This document shows positions 43,694-49,907 of a stretch of DNA of 64,000 nucleotides, piece by piece. A program made the translations under genes and the position numbers. How positions within the stretch are numbered: position 1 is the first letter of the stretch; each line of letters begins with the position of its first letter. The notes beneath the pieces were generated by a model. It was not told the DNA's origin, searched no databases, and was given only the letters and a program-made list of their open reading frames with translations. The stretch is from an uncultured Ectothiorhodospiraceae bacterium (GTDB lineage Bacteria; Pseudomonadota; Gammaproteobacteria; UBA6429; Thiohalophilaceae). Where the stretch lies: contig CAMYMU010000001.1 in assembly GCA_947259575.1 (NCBI GenBank), positions 186,001 through 250,000 on the forward strand, read 5' to 3'.

Positions 43694-43704
43694 TGCATAA
43701 TGCA
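43694..43704. promoter_or_regulatory. TGCA-N3-TGCA palindrome upstream of the sensor kinase gene
   Basis: TGCATAATGCA, an odd perfect palindrome, about 104 bases before the inferred kinase-gene start site. The 12-mer CTGCATAATGCA here also occurs (as its complement) upstream of soxY at 49617-49628. Candidate binding site for the NtrC-type regulator encoded downstream. Confidence 0.5.
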
Positions 43705-43774: not shown

Positions 43775-43809
43775 TCTTGTTTTGAACTGCTATAATTATG
43801 CATATTGCA
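43775..43809 (+). promoter_or_regulatory. sigma-70-like promoter of the two-component operon with a second TGCA-N3-TGCA site
   Basis: A consensus TATAAT lies at 43791-43796 with a weak TTTTGA-like -35 box about 16 bases upstream. TGCATATTGCA (43799-43809) covers the expected start site near 43803, a position that would allow autorepression. The placement also argues that translation starts at ATG 43832 and not at the TTG at 43805. Confidence 0.5.
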
Positions 43810-43831: not shown

Positions 43832-45796
43832 ATGCAGCTTCGCCAAAAATTCTTTTTAGTCCTTACTTTGCTTACAGCAGTACCGCTGCTGATCTTGCTG
43901 TTCGGGGTCGTTGATCGGATTGAATCAGAGGTCAGGGCCCAGACCGAGAAAGAACTGCATATCTCATTGGACAAGATGGCCGATGAGATAAATCTTATTC
44001 TTGAGAACCAGAAATCTATAGCGCGGGGATTAGCACACGTCCCGGCAGTAAGACAGTTTGCTGCATATGTGAACAAGCCCATTGGTGGTGAATTCAGTGC
44101 AGAGGAGTATCAGCGCCGGGCCGAAGAGCTGGAGCAGTTTTTCCTCAATTATGCCCATGTTGTGGGTACCATCCAGGCCCTGCGCTTTATCGATCCGCAA
44201 GGTAAAACGCTAGTCAAGGTCAAGGAAGGCAAACCCATCGAGCCCAAGCAGTTCGATCCAAAATACAAGCGTTTTTACGTAGCTGACCAATCCAGTAAGA
44301 ATTTTTTCAAGTATACAGTCGAAGCTGAGCAAGACGTAGTGATGTCCGATTTTGAGCTGGGGCAGGTAACCGGTCAGCCGGATTTTTGTCCCGCAATGGT
44401 CCGCTATGCGGCTTCGGTTAGAGACGAGGTAGACCGGGAGGAAGGTTTATTAGTAGTTAATATGTGGGGTACAAGACTTGATTCGACGGTTGAGGCCTCA
44501 TTAGGTGGTTATCCAGGTAACGCCTTTGTGGTTGAGATGAATGATGGCACCGTGCGTGATGGTATTTATCTCTATCACCGTGAAACTAACAAGCGCTTTG
44601 GTAATCAGCTCAAATCACAATACCGTTTTACCAGCGAAATTTCGCCACAAGAGTGGCAACACATCCGCGCCAATCAGGAACGTGGTTCTTTATACCTGGA
44701 TGATGGCCGCATGTTCTTTTTTCGAACATTGGCTCCCTTTGAATCCAGACCTCTGACTAGTTGGTTATTGCTTATAGAAGCGGATAGCAAAACAGTGTTT
44801 GCGCCTATCGAAAATATGCGGCGTTCTATCTGGCTGCTGTTAGGGCTACTGCTGGTCATCAGTCTGCTTATTTCGATCTGGGCAGCCTGGAAACTTGCTC
44901 AACCTGTACATGAACTGGCAGATGTGATTACCCGTTATGCAGATGGTGATCATGGCATTCGTTACGAAGATAAACGCAGCGATGAGATTGGTATTGCTGG
45001 CAAGGCCTTTAATTATCTTACCTCAAGCCTGGAGAAGGCTGAGCGAGGACGTGATACCGCACAACAGCAAGCGCGCCAGTCAGAACGTTTAGCCTCGGTT
45101 GGACAATTAGCAGCAGGGATTGGCCATGAGATCAACAACCCTCTGATGAATATCATGTCTCTGGCGGCATTGGTGGAAACCTCGGTAAAAGATGATGAGC
45201 AGGCCTTAAGTGACTTGCAGCTGTTACAAAAAGAAGGTCAACGCTGTGCGCGCATTGTGCAGGGTATCTTAAGTTTTGCGCGTGAAAACAAGCCTGACTT
45301 TCACGAATTCAACATGACTGAATTAGTAGAAGAAACGCTAAATTTATTGCAGCACCGTGTCGAATCAGCGGAGATAACCGTTGTGGTTGAACAGGAACAT
45401 GATCTTTATATGGTAGGTGACATGAATCAGCTACAACAGGTTCTCGTCAATATTATTCTGAACGCGGTACAGGCCTCTGAGGCCGGTGGCACGATACATA
45501 TTAAATCATACAAAGATATTGATTACGTCGCGGTTGAAATCATTGATAGCGGTGCAGGTATTCGCCCTGATGCGGCCGCGAAGGTTTTTGATCCTTTCTT
45601 TACTACTAAGAAAGAAGGTGAGGGGACCGGCCTGGGCTTGTCGGTGAGTTACGGCATTGTTAAACACCATGGCGGTACCATTCACATAGAAAATAACCAG
45701 GAGTCTGGCTTGCGCGTTGTTATTTTACTGCCGTTCAAGGCTTTGCTTGAAGATAATCCCGATGACACCCTATTGGAGGCAACTAATGCCATCTAG
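43832..45796 (+). CDS. sensor histidine kinase with periplasmic domain, partner of a sigma-54 activator
   Basis: 654 residues from ATG 43832. Transmembrane segment 1 (residues ~7-25, FFLVLTLLTAVPLLILLFG), a large periplasmic sensor of ~310 residues (Cache-like, single Cys in PDFCPAM), transmembrane segment 2 (SIWLLLGLLLVISLLISIWAAW), HAMP, short coiled coil, then HisKA with GQLAAGIGHEINNPLMN (phospho-acceptor His432) and HATPase_c with NIILNAVQAS, DSGAGIRPD, FFTTKKEGEGTGLGLS. NtrB/AtoS-type transmitter. The regulator gene overlaps its end by 11 bases. Its likely targets are the neighbouring DsrE-like and soxYZ genes, so a sulfur compound in the periplasm is a plausible signal; that is inference. 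Confidence 0.92.
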   Translation: MQLRQKFFLVLTLLTAVPLLILLFGVVDRIESEVRAQTEKELHISLDKMADEINLILENQKSIARGLAHVPAVRQFAAYVNKPIGGEFSAEEYQRRAEELEQFFLNYAHVVGTIQALRFIDPQGKTLVKVKEGKPIEPKQFDPKYKRFYVADQSSKNFFKYTVEAEQDVVMSDFELGQVTGQPDFCPAMVRYAASVRDEVDREEGLLVVNMWGTRLDSTVEASLGGYPGNAFVVEMNDGTVRDGIYLYHRETNKRFGNQLKSQYRFTSEISPQEWQHIRANQERGSLYLDDGRMFFFRTLAPFESRPLTSWLLLIEADSKTVFAPIENMRRSIWLLLGLLLVISLLISIWAAWKLAQPVHELADVITRYADGDHGIRYEDKRSDEIGIAGKAFNYLTSSLEKAERGRDTAQQQARQSERLASVGQLAAGIGHEINNPLMNIMSLAALVETSVKDDEQALSDLQLLQKEGQRCARIVQGILSFARENKPDFHEFNMTELVEETLNLLQHRVESAEITVVVEQEHDLYMVGDMNQLQQVLVNIILNAVQASEAGGTIHIKSYKDIDYVAVEIIDSGAGIRPDAAAKVFDPFFTTKKEGEGTGLGLSVSYGIVKHHGGTIHIENNQESGLRVVILLPFKALLEDNPDDTLLEATNAI

Positions 45797-47156
45797 TCCA
45801 ACTCGTATTATGTTTATCGATGATGACGCGGTGACGTGTCGAGTAATGAAACGCAACTGTGACAACGCAAATTATGTCTGCGAGGTTTTTCAGGATGCCA
45901 AGGCTTGCTTGAATGGATTTAAGAAAGATGGTGCTGACATTGTTATTACTGATTTGCGCATGCCGGGAATGAGTGGTTTTGAATTACTGAGTGAATTACG
46001 CGCTGTAGATGAAGATGTACCTGTCGTGGTTATGACGGGTTACTCATCAGTTGAAAATGCCGTAGAAGCAATGAAACGCGGTGCCAGTGACTTCATTAAA
46101 AAGCCTTTTGATTTTGAAGAGCTCAAAATCATGCTTGAGCGGACATTGAAGTCACGAAGCTTGCGTAACGAAAATAAATTACTAAAACGCCGCATCGGTC
46201 AAAAGCGAAATCGCTTTGGTATGATTGGTGATACCCCGGTAATGCGGACTCTGTTTAATACGATTGAGAAAATTGCTGAAGTGAGTTGTAGCGCAATCTT
46301 AACGGGTGAATCAGGTACTGGAAAGGAGCTGGTTGCCCGTGCGCTACACGATTTCAGCCCGCGTAGCGAAAAACCATTTGTCGCCATCGATTGTGGTGCA
46401 CTTAGCGATACTCTTTTAGAGAGTGAGTTATTTGGTCACGAAAAAGGTGCGTTTACTGGTGCAACCCAGCGTAAATATGGATTAATGGAGCAGGCTGATG
46501 GAGGCACTTTGTTCCTGGACGAGATATGTAACATCTCCGACACTATGCAAATAAAATTAATGCGTGCGATTGAAGACCGCCGCATTATTCGCGTAGGTGG
46601 GACCACGCCTATACCCGTTGATGTGCGTGTTGTTGCCGCAAGTAACCAAGACCTGGAGAAAATGGTCGAAGAAGGGCGACTCCGCCATGACTTCTATCAT
46701 CGTTTAAATGTCGTTACCGTGCGTGTACCTTCTTTGAGAGAACGTCGTGAAGACATTCCTGCCCTGGTTGACTATTACATTAAAGAATTTTCAGAGCGTT
46801 ACCAGCGCAGCGTAAAAGGTTTTGACAGTATCTCTTTGCAGCGTATGTGTGAGGCGGACTGGAAAGGCAATGTACGGGAGTTAAAGAATACAGTTGAGCG
46901 CTGTGTCATCCTGACTGAGAGCCCAATAATGACTTGGGAGAACGATGGTCAGATTAGTGATGAAGAACTGTTATCGGCGGCGAGATTTTCCGAGAGTGAA
47001 TTCGTTTCACTAGAGGGTTTGGAGCAGGAATATATTAAACATGTACTTAAATGTTGCCGAGGTAAAAAGACAAAAGCAGCACAGGTTTTAGGTATCGATA
47101 AGACAACTTTGTGGAGAAAATTACGCCGTTATGAAAATGAATCAGAAACGGTGTAA
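45786..47156 (+). CDS. sigma-54-dependent response regulator, NtrC family
   Basis: 456 residues from ATG 45786 (GGAGG ribosome site inside the kinase gene). Receiver domain with acidic IDDDA and phospho-acceptor Asp56 in VITDLRMPGMSG, Thr in VVVMTGYSS and Lys in DFIKKPFDF. AAA+ domain: Walker A GESGTGKELVAR, sigma-54-contact loop GAFTGA, Walker B GGTLFLDEI, arginine-finger region. C-terminal Fis-type helix-turn-helix: KTKAAQVLGIDKTTLWRKLRRY. Activates sigma-54 RNA polymerase from upstream sites. Sigma-54 promoters are readable at 47284 and, on the other strand, at 49551, each with a TGCA-N3-TGCA site upstream. Confidence 0.95.
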   Translation: MPSSPTRIMFIDDDAVTCRVMKRNCDNANYVCEVFQDAKACLNGFKKDGADIVITDLRMPGMSGFELLSELRAVDEDVPVVVMTGYSSVENAVEAMKRGASDFIKKPFDFEELKIMLERTLKSRSLRNENKLLKRRIGQKRNRFGMIGDTPVMRTLFNTIEKIAEVSCSAILTGESGTGKELVARALHDFSPRSEKPFVAIDCGALSDTLLESELFGHEKGAFTGATQRKYGLMEQADGGTLFLDEICNISDTMQIKLMRAIEDRRIIRVGGTTPIPVDVRVVAASNQDLEKMVEEGRLRHDFYHRLNVVTVRVPSLRERREDIPALVDYYIKEFSERYQRSVKGFDSISLQRMCEADWKGNVRELKNTVERCVILTESPIMTWENDGQISDEELLSAARFSESEFVSLEGLEQEYIKHVLKCCRGKKTKAAQVLGIDKTTLWRKLRRYENESETV

Positions 47157-47173
47157 TTTACAATATGACAGCT

Positions 47174-47195
47174 ATACTGTTTGGTGCACATTGCA
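47174..47195 (+). promoter_or_regulatory. candidate enhancer: ATACTGTTTGGTG plus TGCA-N3-TGCA
   Basis: TGCACATTGCA (47185-47195) is centred about 120 bases before the inferred start of the DsrE-like transcript. It overlaps the 13-mer ATACTGTTTGGTG (47174-47186), which recurs exactly at 49673-49685 upstream of soxY. Position is typical of an NtrC-type upstream activating site. Confidence 0.5.
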
Positions 47196-47283
47196 ATAAA
47201 AAAACCTATTAGAGTGTGCTAATTTTGACGAAAAAACCGTCTAACCTATTGATTATAAATGTAAATAAAAAAAACCTAGACAC

Positions 47284-47299
47284 TGGAATGTATATTGCT
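47284..47299 (+). promoter_or_regulatory. sigma-54 (-24/-12) promoter of the DsrE-like gene
   Basis: TGGAATGTATATTGCT fits the TGGCACG-N4-TTGCW consensus: the invariant GG and GC are present with ten bases between them and the whole -12 block TTGCT is exact. Start site would be near 47310, leaving a ~77-base leader that contains an inverted repeat GTACT/AGTAC (47314-47330). Confidence 0.7.
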
Positions 47300-47386: not shown

Positions 47387-47857
47387 ATGAAATTAGTAAG
47401 TAAAATTGCATTAGTAGCTGCAGGTGTTGCGATGGCTGCTTCAGCCCAGGCTGTAGACCCATCAAAGAAAGCTAAGAACGGTTATAACCAACAGCGCGTT
47501 GTTTATCATGTAAACAACATCCATACAGCTAAAGGTGCTCTTCGTAATGTTAAGAATCACTTGAACGCTTTAGGTGATGACAACATCGAAGTTATCGTTG
47601 TAACTCACAGCTCTGGTGCTTTCGCCATGGTTGACGGTTCAATGGGTAAGAAAAATAAAAAAGGTAAGGTCTATAACTTCAATGATCAAATTGCTGGTCT
47701 AGCTAACCGCGGTGTTAAATTCACAATCTGTGCAAACACCATCCGTGGTAAGAAGATCCCTAAAGGTAAGATCAACGAAAACGCTGAAGTCATTCCATCA
47801 GGCGTAGCTCACGTTGCTCACCTTCAGCAAAAAGGTTACCTGTACGTTAAGCCATAA
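47387..47857 (+). CDS. secreted DsrE-family protein
   Basis: 156 residues from ATG 47387, six bases inside the open frame and after a TAGGAGGAG ribosome site. Signal peptide (LVSKIALVAAGVAMAASAQA). The mature domain follows the COG1416/DsrE-like pattern: VVYHVNNIHTAKGALRNVKNHLNAL, NIEVIVVTHSSG, LANRGVKFTICANTIRG with the conserved single Cys115, IPSGVAHVAHLQQKGYLYVKP. DsrE proteins are sulfur-trafficking relatives; the Cys could carry persulfide, but that is unproven for periplasmic members. It sits behind a sigma-54 promoter and just after a sigma-54 activator gene. Strong terminator downstream. Highly expressed codon and ribosome-site features are consistent with an abundant protein. Confidence 0.87.
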   Translation: MKLVSKIALVAAGVAMAASAQAVDPSKKAKNGYNQQRVVYHVNNIHTAKGALRNVKNHLNALGDDNIEVIVVTHSSGAFAMVDGSMGKKNKKGKVYNFNDQIAGLANRGVKFTICANTIRGKKIPKGKINENAEVIPSGVAHVAHLQQKGYLYVKP

Positions 47858-47938: not shown

Positions 47939-48513
47939 ATTTCTTTTCGTCCCAGTGGGACGAGATACTTTTCTTTTTACTTGTCATGATGTGTTTTTCG
48001 CAGCACTACTGCGACCTACTTTCTTGTATCGACAAGAAAGTAGGCAAAGAAACTCTTCCCCTGCGCTTGCCAAACATTCGTGGCTTATTGGCTTACTCAG
48101 TGAAACTTTGTGATTCGCCTTCCTTGGCTCATCACAAAGGCTCGGCCTCCATGCCTCGCCCCGCTGGGTTTCACTTGCGTGTAGCCAAACGCCTCTCACA
48201 GCTGCGCAAGGGGATTGTCCACTAAGCGAGTACGGTGCGATGTTCTAATGTGATACCCCTCAGTTTAACGTGCGAGCAAATACTCCCCCCATGTGAGGGT
48301 GTGTGAGTTTTAGAGTTTCTTGGAGAAATAAAATAGAGCGAGCCATGGATGGTGAGCCCGGTTTTGCTGAGCATGGATGCGAATCAAAACCGGACAGGGC
48401 AATAAACACTAAAACTCACTGCTTACACCCTGAACGGGGGTGTCATTTCTTTTGTGTACTTTTCTTTGGACAAGCAAAGAAAAGTACCTCGTTCCAGTGG
48501 AACGAAAAAAAAT
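47939..48513. mobile_element. non-autonomous MITE-like element with terminal inverted repeats and nested hairpins
   Basis: The ends are imperfect inverted repeats of ~45 bases: left ATTTCTTTTCG then CGTCCCAGTGGGACG and AGATACTTTTC; right, as complement, ATTTTTTTTCG then CGTTCCACTGGAACG and AGGTACTTTTC. Inside are further hairpins: CCTACTTTCTTGT-ATCG-ACAAGAAAGTAGG (48015-48044); AGTGAAAC/GTTTCACT around CTTTGTGAT/ATCACAAAG (48099-48177 region); a GTGAGTTTTAGAGTTT (48303-48318) / AAACACTAAAACTCAC (48404-48419) pair enclosing CCGGTTTTG/CAAAACCGG (48358-48393); and GTACTTTTCTTTG-GACAAG-CAAAGAAAAGTAC (48456-48487). No transposase or credible protein is encoded, and I see no clear target-site duplication. 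Short open frames inside are not supported as genes. Confidence 0.65.
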
Positions 48514-48573
48514 AAGTTCATTAAAGAAAGGATTCCGGCCCGTAGGCCGAAATGATAAGAAACATCAGAGAAT

Positions 48574-48644: not shown

Positions 48645-48968
48645 TTATTTAATCTGAGCTTCTGCTACATCCTTTTCGCCCTGATTATCGACCCAGCTCA
48701 GTTTGAGTGTGTCGCCTTTTTTGGCATTCTTTAAGCGGAATGATAAAAATGGGTTTTTGGACACGCCGGGTCCCCACAAGCAAGTCAGAACTGTTTTGCC
48801 GTTGTGCTCGCAGGTTAGCTCTTCGATGTAATGGGCGGGTATTTTCTTACCAGTTGCCTTGTCTTTACGTAGACCGGTTTCCATCTGGTGGAAGACGATC
48901 GCTTTTACAGTAGCAGCGCCATTGTCGGCCCATGCTCTGATCTTCATCTTTTTTCTTTTCTTTGCCAT
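48645..48968 (-). CDS. soxZ: thiosulfate oxidation carrier complex protein SoxZ
   Basis: 107 residues, the usual SoxZ length, no signal peptide. KKRKKMKIRAWADNGAATVKAIVFHQMETGLRKDKATGKKIPAHYIEELTCEHNGKTVL and the family block WGPGVSKNPFLSFRLKNAKKGDTLKLSWVDNQG. It pairs with SoxY, probably exported with it through the Tat system, to form the SoxYZ carrier that holds sulfur intermediates in the periplasm. Lies 33 bases after soxY with an AGAGGT ribosome site. soxA, soxX, soxB and soxCD are not in the window. Confidence 0.95.
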   Translation of the reverse strand: MAKKRKKMKIRAWADNGAATVKAIVFHQMETGLRKDKATGKKIPAHYIEELTCEHNGKTVLTCLWGPGVSKNPFLSFRLKNAKKGDTLKLSWVDNQGEKDVAEAQIK

Positions 48969-49001: not shown

Positions 49002-49472
49002 TTAACCGCCACAGCCGCCCAGGGTTACCTTCACTGGCTTTTTAGCGGTGAGTAATTTGCCATCGGCTTTGACCAGGGCAATAACATCAGATGTTTTACG
49101 CATCTTGATGCGGCCTGTAACAAAACCATCGACTGCACTAGTGGTGATATAACTTGAGCAAAGCGGGTTGGCATTTTCAGGTACAAGAACAGAAATTTGC
49201 TCAGTATTGGCTGCTTTACTCTTAACAGTAACAGAGACAACAGCACCGTTTTCTGCAATATCAGGTGCTTCAACAGAAATTTCCTTGCTATCGGCTGCCT
49301 TGGTGCTGCCGGCAATTGCTTTCATAGCATCTTCTACTGTTGTTGCATTAAATGCGCTTTTTGGCCAAGCAGCGAGGACGGTACGAGGGCTGAGCAAACC
49401 TGCACTGGTTGCTACTGCAATTGTACCGGCCGCCATTGTGGCCTGTAAAAATGTTCTACGAGTCTGGTTCAT
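49002..49472 (-). CDS. soxY: thiosulfate oxidation carrier protein SoxY
   Basis: 156 residues. A Tat-type signal (TRRTFLQA at residues 4-11, then a hydrophobic stretch and AWP cleavage region) targets the folded protein to the periplasm. The C-terminus is KVTLGGCGG: the Cys154 in the GGCGG tail is the swinging-arm attachment point for thiosulfate sulfur. The middle domain has AENGAVVSVTVKSKA. AAGGAG ribosome site eight bases before the ATG. A sigma-54 promoter can be read on the same strand ~64 bases upstream. Cotranscribed with soxZ. Confidence 0.96.
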   Translation of the reverse strand: MNQTRRTFLQATMAAGTIAVATSAGLLSPRTVLAAWPKSAFNATTVEDAMKAIAGSTKAADSKEISVEAPDIAENGAVVSVTVKSKAANTEQISVLVPENANPLCSSYITTSAVDGFVTGRIKMRKTSDVIALVKADGKLLTAKKPVKVTLGGCGG

Positions 49473-49535
49473 CGAACGGCTCCTTCAATATTTCGTTCTG
49501 ACTTAATAAGTATTTCTCTCCCGTACAATCTATAC

Positions 49536-49551
49536 AGCAATTTTTGTACCA
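49536..49551 (-). promoter_or_regulatory. sigma-54 (-24/-12) promoter of soxYZ
   Basis: On the minus strand TGGTACAAAAATTGCT, matching TGGCACG-N4-TTGCW with the invariant GG and GC ten bases apart and an exact TTGCT. The inferred start is near 49525, ~53 bases before the soxY ATG. Confidence 0.7.
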
Positions 49552-49609: not shown

Positions 49610-49628
49610 CAAACAGTGCATTATGCAG
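49610..49628 (-). promoter_or_regulatory. candidate enhancer upstream of soxYZ: TGCA-N3-TGCA
   Basis: TGCATTATGCA (49617-49627) is centred ~97 bases before the inferred soxY start. On the minus strand it is followed by ACTGTTTG (49617-49610), part of the 13-mer shared between this region (49673-49685) and the DsrE-like gene upstream region (47174-47186). Confidence 0.5.
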
Positions 49629-49790
49629 TTAGTGATGCTGCAAAAGTCCCTGGTAATACCCCCAGGCTTTGAATACTGTTTGGTGTCTCTGACCCTATAT
49701 CGTCCATCTTAGTATGTATCTACAATTTTTCTTCATCACAATGTCTCGCGAGTAGGGCAAAAATTAAGAAACAATATTAATTTTGATTTC

Positions 49791-49830: not shown

Positions 49831-49907
<77 letters not shown>

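Follow-up and report, generated by a model that had tools for sequence, protein, structure and literature searches.

The soxYZ locus and its neighbours

In the genome studied here (3.45 Mb, 70 contigs), the soxYZ genes, with which bacteria gain energy from sulfur compounds, face a gene of the DsrE family, which lies after the genes of a sensor histidine kinase and a response regulator. All positions refer to the window, that is, the whole stretch of 64,000 nucleotides that was analysed (C1:186001-250000). The features of the locus are as follows.

43694..43704: second palindrome upstream of the kinase gene, TGCATAATGCA, conserved in the genus
43799..43809: palindrome TGCATATTGCA, immediately following TGCTATAAT; possibly a site of autorepression
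43832..45796, plus strand: sensor histidine kinase (HisKA, HATPase_c, HAMP, HK_sensor_dom_bact)
45786..47156, plus strand: NtrC-type response regulator (Response_reg, Sigma54_activat, HTH_8; GAFTGA and Walker motifs)
47185..47195: putative activator palindrome TGCACATTGCA; the -24 element of the DsrE-family gene follows 99 nt downstream
47242..47254, plus strand: IHF-like site TAACCTATTGATT, by consensus
47284..47299, plus strand: predicted -24/-12 promoter of the DsrE-family gene, TGGAATGTATATTGCT; sites scoring 11 bits or more occur in 36/53 DsrE upstream regions
47387..47857, plus strand: DsrE-family gene (Pfam DsrE, 36.9 bits; alignment A1)
48645..48968, minus strand: soxZ (TIGR04490, 131 bits; Pfam SoxZ)
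49002..49472, minus strand: soxY (TIGR04488, 155 bits; Pfam SoxY)
49551-49536, minus strand: predicted -24/-12 promoter of soxYZ, TGGTACAAAAATTGCT, by letter match and conservation upstream of soxY
49617..49627: putative activator palindrome, which reads TGCATAATGCA on the minus strand; the soxY -24 element lies 76 nt downstream
49639..49642: extra TGCA half-site, at a spacer of 11 upstream of the soxY palindrome

The regulator has the composition of an NtrC-type activator: a receiver domain, an AAA+ domain with the GAFTGA motif and a Fis-type HTH. The ATG of the kinase gene is at 43832; the open reading frame as listed is longer, opening farther upstream at a TTG that lies within the palindrome. 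The DsrE-family protein has an N-terminus that resembles a signal peptide when read by eye and a cysteine, Cys115, that is invariant in alignment A1; its solved relatives comprise three matches (1l1s, 2pd2 and 8uja). Judging from its N-terminus and Cys115, the protein may function as a periplasmic sulfur carrier. Between the DsrE-family gene and soxZ, positions 47940-48520 contain several inverted repeats and resemble a repetitive non-coding element. On the other side, a tRNA-Met (CAT) gene on the plus strand (49831-49907) diverges from the soxYZ operon.

The -24/-12 element and the TGCA-N3-TGCA palindrome

The first-pass annotation had proposed a sigma-54 promoter on the minus strand in front of soxYZ. 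The 16-mer at 49536-49551 agrees with it letter for letter, and the distance of 64 bases to soxY turned out to be right within one, since 63 nt separate the 3' end of TGGTACAAAAATTGCT from the soxY ATG (49472). The site has the GG-N10-GC spacing of a sigma-54 (-24/-12) promoter, and the position of the -12 GC predicts a transcription start near 49525. The proposed pair of promoters within 2.3 kb was also found: the partner, before the DsrE-family gene, is 2.25 kb away. The sigma-54 activator expected close by corresponds to the NtrC-type regulator, whose gene ends at 47156 (Sigma54_activat, 222 bits). The genome contains the sigma-54 gene rpoN (G000; Sigma54_DBD, 236 bits). The same annotation overlooked the operator of the activator, the site before the kinase gene, a second module elsewhere in the genome and the lineages that have lost the element.

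The motif by itself is weak evidence. No other stretch of the window matches TGGYACN5TTGCW exactly, but allowing up to two mismatches yields 73 matches there, where 62 are expected, and across the whole genome the exact pattern matches 11 times against 7 for the pattern read backwards. The bare 16-mer was thus rejected as evidence, and it is conservation that raises the element above chance. Through the DsrE-family protein (alignment A1) we found 54 orthologous loci (L083-L136), and together with the window these gave 30 soxY, 53 DsrE and 40 kinase upstream regions. We scored the last 130 nt of each region with an untrained sigma-54 matrix at a threshold of 11 bits. The element is kept in 22 of the 30 soxY upstream regions, with an average of 0.08 in mononucleotide shuffles, so that the conservation of GG and GC, which the first-pass annotation had named as its test, bears the promoter out. 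The regions without a site of at least 11 bits are those of L087, L088, L090, L091, L094, L102, L107 and L113. For the DsrE upstream regions, the 36 sites are to be compared with 0.2 in mononucleotide shuffles.

Along with the -24/-12 element, the upstream regions share a palindrome, TGCA-N3-TGCA. In a first set, which overlaps the second, it is present in 23/29 soxY and 26/29 DsrE upstream regions (0.2 in shuffles); in the second set the counts are 27/30 and 44/53. Among the other spacers between two TGCA halves (0 to 12), none is found in more than 4 of 29 upstream regions, except for the spacer of 11 before soxY, where TGCA-N11-TGCA, found in 14/29, represents the extra half-site. All 20 loci carrying both elements have the palindrome 74-77 nt from the soxY -24. 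Before the DsrE-family gene the distance is 95-101 nt in 26 of 35 loci and 84-120 nt in the remaining 9, several of which would be about one or two helical turns away. A palindrome at a fixed distance is consistent with the upstream activator site of a sigma-54 promoter. As evidence on its own the palindrome was rejected, since the window has 5 copies where 2.4 are expected. Within the window's genus (4 genomes), 7/8 letters of the -24/-12 element and 8/8 of the palindrome upstream of soxY are invariant, compared with 95/214 of the other positions. Upstream of the DsrE-family gene (the same 4 genomes and one of another genus), both are invariant in 8/8 letters, compared with 74/214 elsewhere. 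Thus the sigma-54 reading of the first-pass annotation is supported by conservation, by a second element at a fixed distance and by the presence of rpoN. Several loci count against it, as they have a sigma-54-like site and no exact palindrome: L097 and L104 before soxY, and L097 and L131 before the DsrE-family gene.

A different polymerase could be considered. Activator-dependent sigma-70 promoters can stray far from the consensus, and some lineages seemingly do without the -24/-12 element, so soxYZ might be driven by a sigma-70 promoter invisible to the scan, the -24/-12 element being a remnant or of minor importance. A simple sigma-70 scan of the minus strand listed no site from the palindrome to soxY; the nearest match, at 49449-49420, is within the soxY gene. 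We consider this explanation very improbable, given that in the genus the -24/-12 element is as invariant as the palindrome and that the spacing between them is held in every locus with both.

The spacer between palindrome and promoter was also scanned for IHF sites, using a consensus with at most one mismatch. It turned out that 26/35 DsrE spacers contain such a site, compared with 21% of shuffles; before soxY the signal is weaker (8/20, compared with 11%).

The palindrome is linked to the regulator gene. This count covers the 50 DsrE loci whose upstream sequence extends over 2 kb or more; the shorter L093, L111 and L126 were left out. The palindrome is present in 41 of the 44 loci with a regulator within 2.5 kb, and in none of the 6 without a regulator. 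One locus without a regulator, L129, has a sigma-54-like site of 9.8 bits, which counts against the proposed sigma-54 control by the neighbouring regulator.

Palindromes are located before the kinase gene as well. In 35 of 40 loci a palindrome lies 28-36 nt before the kinase ATG, and in three genomes of the genus 16/16 letters of the two kinase-upstream palindromes are invariant. In the window, TGCTATAAT at 43788-43796 directly precedes the palindrome at 43799-43809, which would therefore cover the start of the kinase-regulator message. This suggests that the regulator represses its own operon, but such a -10-like hexamer beside the palindrome is only moderately enriched (26/35, compared with 34% at random positions).

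Further composite sites and a second module

The strict composite (palindrome, 50-110 nt, TGGN8TTGCW) occurs twice in the genome, at the predicted soxYZ and DsrE promoters, and its reversed form does not occur. The relaxed composite (45-105 nt, TGGN8YTGCN) occurs four times, each time before a gene of the SoxY or DsrE family, again with no reversed match. The third of these sites, with a spacing of 64 nt, is at the start of a second soxYZ, on a contig with a paralogous kinase-regulator pair, which we call module B (L190). The fourth (L235, G000:C25:48103-48205) is directly before an open reading frame that joins SoxY and VIT domains. Across ten genomes, 29 of the 41 composite matches lie before SoxY-family or DsrE genes, and the reversed pattern gave 4. 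The 30th, L237 (G021:C3:1110082-1110164), consists of a palindrome and TGGCATGTAACCTGCA before TusA-like and Sulf_transp genes; in this relative, the pair may also belong to the regulon. The other 11 matches include G010:C45.

All 15 copies of the module-B regulator that were read have an intact GAFTGA, including five from genomes of the genera g13 and g14. In the g13 and g14 genomes, the soxY gene of module B also keeps a palindrome and a -24/-12 element, 76-77 nt apart. The palindrome before the module-B soxY is related, often inside a longer TCGTGCA-N3-TGCACGA. Among the module-B loci (L190-L207), some soxY promoters have 64-65 nt between the palindrome and the -24 and others 75-78 nt, a difference of about one helical turn. 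Each genome has two further copies of soxY, one beside module B and one after a cytochrome-like frame, perhaps soxX. Within each genome these copies share their first SoxY residues, and contigs often end inside them (for example L190/L189, at the ends of contigs G000:C36 and C63, L197/L198 and L204/L205). Gene conversion between soxYZ copies is possible, with the soxY of the window staying distinct.

Loss of the promoter elements together with the GAFTGA loop

At seven loci, the -24/-12 element before the DsrE-family gene is absent, and the regulator is adjacent and the palindrome kept. These are L087 and L088 of genus g14, L090, L091, L094 and L095 of g13, and L118, which the trees place with g13. 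The soxY element is also gone where it can be read (L087, L088, L090, L091 and L094). The GAFTGA loop of the regulator is degenerate in 7/7 of these loci: it reads NAFSGA in g13 and HGVNDA or KGVNDA in g14, where Walker A is also altered, to GEPGTGKE. With the DsrE promoter scored at a threshold of 9 bits, loop and promoter occur together in 34 of 43 loci and are both missing in 7; 2 (L107 and L130) have only the loop, and none has only the promoter. L107 and L130, with an intact loop and a lost promoter, count against our explanation. Loss of rpoN was rejected as the cause of the lost promoters for G008, G015, G016, G026, G031, G034 and G036, which keep the gene; in the loop-less lineages this check covers six genomes, the genome of L118 not among them. 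Module B is intact in the same genomes, so the loss has affected this regulator and its two targets specifically. The joint loss is the strongest sequence evidence that sigma-54 and the neighbouring regulator would act at soxYZ.

By parsimony, the loop was lost twice and the promoter four times. A single loop-less clade is compatible with the kinase data taken alone (AU test, p 0.348) and is only weakly rejected by five concatenated proteins (p 0.041), for a group that was named after the tree had been seen. With these values, two independent losses of GAFTGA are likely, not established. Two pairs are too few for a sign test.

Either change alone would be unexpected, yet the loop and the promoters are both lost and the operators are kept. 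On balance we lean towards a change of sigma factor in the g13 and g14 circuit: having lost the loop and both -24/-12 elements, it would now work with sigma-70, and this would probably have happened twice. Alternatively, the module in these lineages may simply be decaying, with no switch to sigma-70. Decay would yield loss of the loop, the Walker A of g14 is changed, and reading the g13 and g14 upstream regions by eye identified no replacement for the -24/-12 element. The loop-less regulators, however, have open frames, a receiver and a nearly unchanged DNA-binding helix, and the palindromes before the DsrE-family and kinase genes are kept in 7/7 of their loci; we regard decay as possible but rather doubtful. 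The lineages with the joint loss are a natural experiment on how a circuit may leave sigma-54, with the paralogous module as a built-in control. In L107 (G008), the loop reads GSFTGA and is intact, the -24/-12 elements of both the DsrE-family gene and soxY have decayed, and GG-N10-GT is found before the DsrE-family gene. This locus may show the loss just beginning, or it may use a different promoter.

The soxYZ site could also be a real sigma-54 promoter whose main activator is a different enhancer-binding protein, for instance the module-B regulator, which is encoded in the same genome beside the second soxYZ, where the related palindrome makes cross-binding possible. This is unlikely, as the palindrome tracks the neighbouring regulator gene and the promoters decay with the loop of this regulator, although GAFTGA is intact in the module-B copies of those genomes. 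The soxYZ site is very probably a sigma-54 (RpoN) promoter that would be activated by the adjacent two-component system. The kinase would phosphorylate the NtrC-type regulator under a signal of reduced sulfur, possibly thiosulfate, as proposed for TspS. The regulator would bind TGCA-N3-TGCA 76 nt (soxY) and 99 nt (DsrE) upstream of the -24 elements and contact the sigma-54 polymerase via looped DNA, perhaps with the help of IHF. Its AAA+ domain with the GAFTGA loop would then open the promoter at soxYZ and at the DsrE-family gene, and regulator bound at the start site of its own operon may limit its own synthesis.

Control of sox genes by sigma-54 two-component systems is already known (PMC6335251, also PMC12194929, as far as the accessible parts of these papers go). 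In Acidithiobacillus caldus, TspS/TspR is the sigma-54 two-component system of the sox-II cluster, with the upstream activator site TGTCCCAAATGGGACA (PMC6335251). According to the parts of that report available to us, both systems have the genes of a kinase and of an NtrC-type regulator next to sox genes, and they share a palindromic upstream site and sigma-54 dependence, which is predicted here. They differ in the targets, a soxXYZA-soxB cluster there and soxYZ with a convergent DsrE-family gene here, and in the operator, TGTCCCAAATGGGACA there and TGCA-N3-TGCA here. The window contains no match to TGTCCCAAATGGGACA with up to three mismatches. The soxYZ locus of Thiohalomonadales symbionts, with a sigma-54 regulator and a kinase (PMC11237559, in the portion available), has a similar gene neighbourhood, and by this comparison of neighbourhoods it is probably the same type of locus. 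NtrC relatives that have no GAFTGA and act with sigma-70 are described in the accessible text of two papers (PMC10274813, PMC3162934): NtrC and HupR of Rhodobacter capsulatus and NtrC of Caulobacter. The g13 and g14 regulators resemble them in that the loop is degenerate or deleted and the DNA-binding domain is conserved. What differs is that here the loss can be traced within one family together with both target promoters and beside an intact paralogue; in this case sigma-70 may be used. In the literature searched, which included few subscription papers and some papers in part, neither a TGCA-N3-TGCA operator nor a partner promoter at a DsrE gene was described, and no sox circuit was reported to have lost loop and promoter jointly; these three may be new.

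The operator, spacing, targets and regulator together define a testable sigma-54 sulfur regulon in a group of sulfur oxidisers that is mostly known through metagenomes. The family (Thiohalophilaceae) has a cultured member, Thiohalophilus thiocyanatoxydans DSM 16326 (L092).
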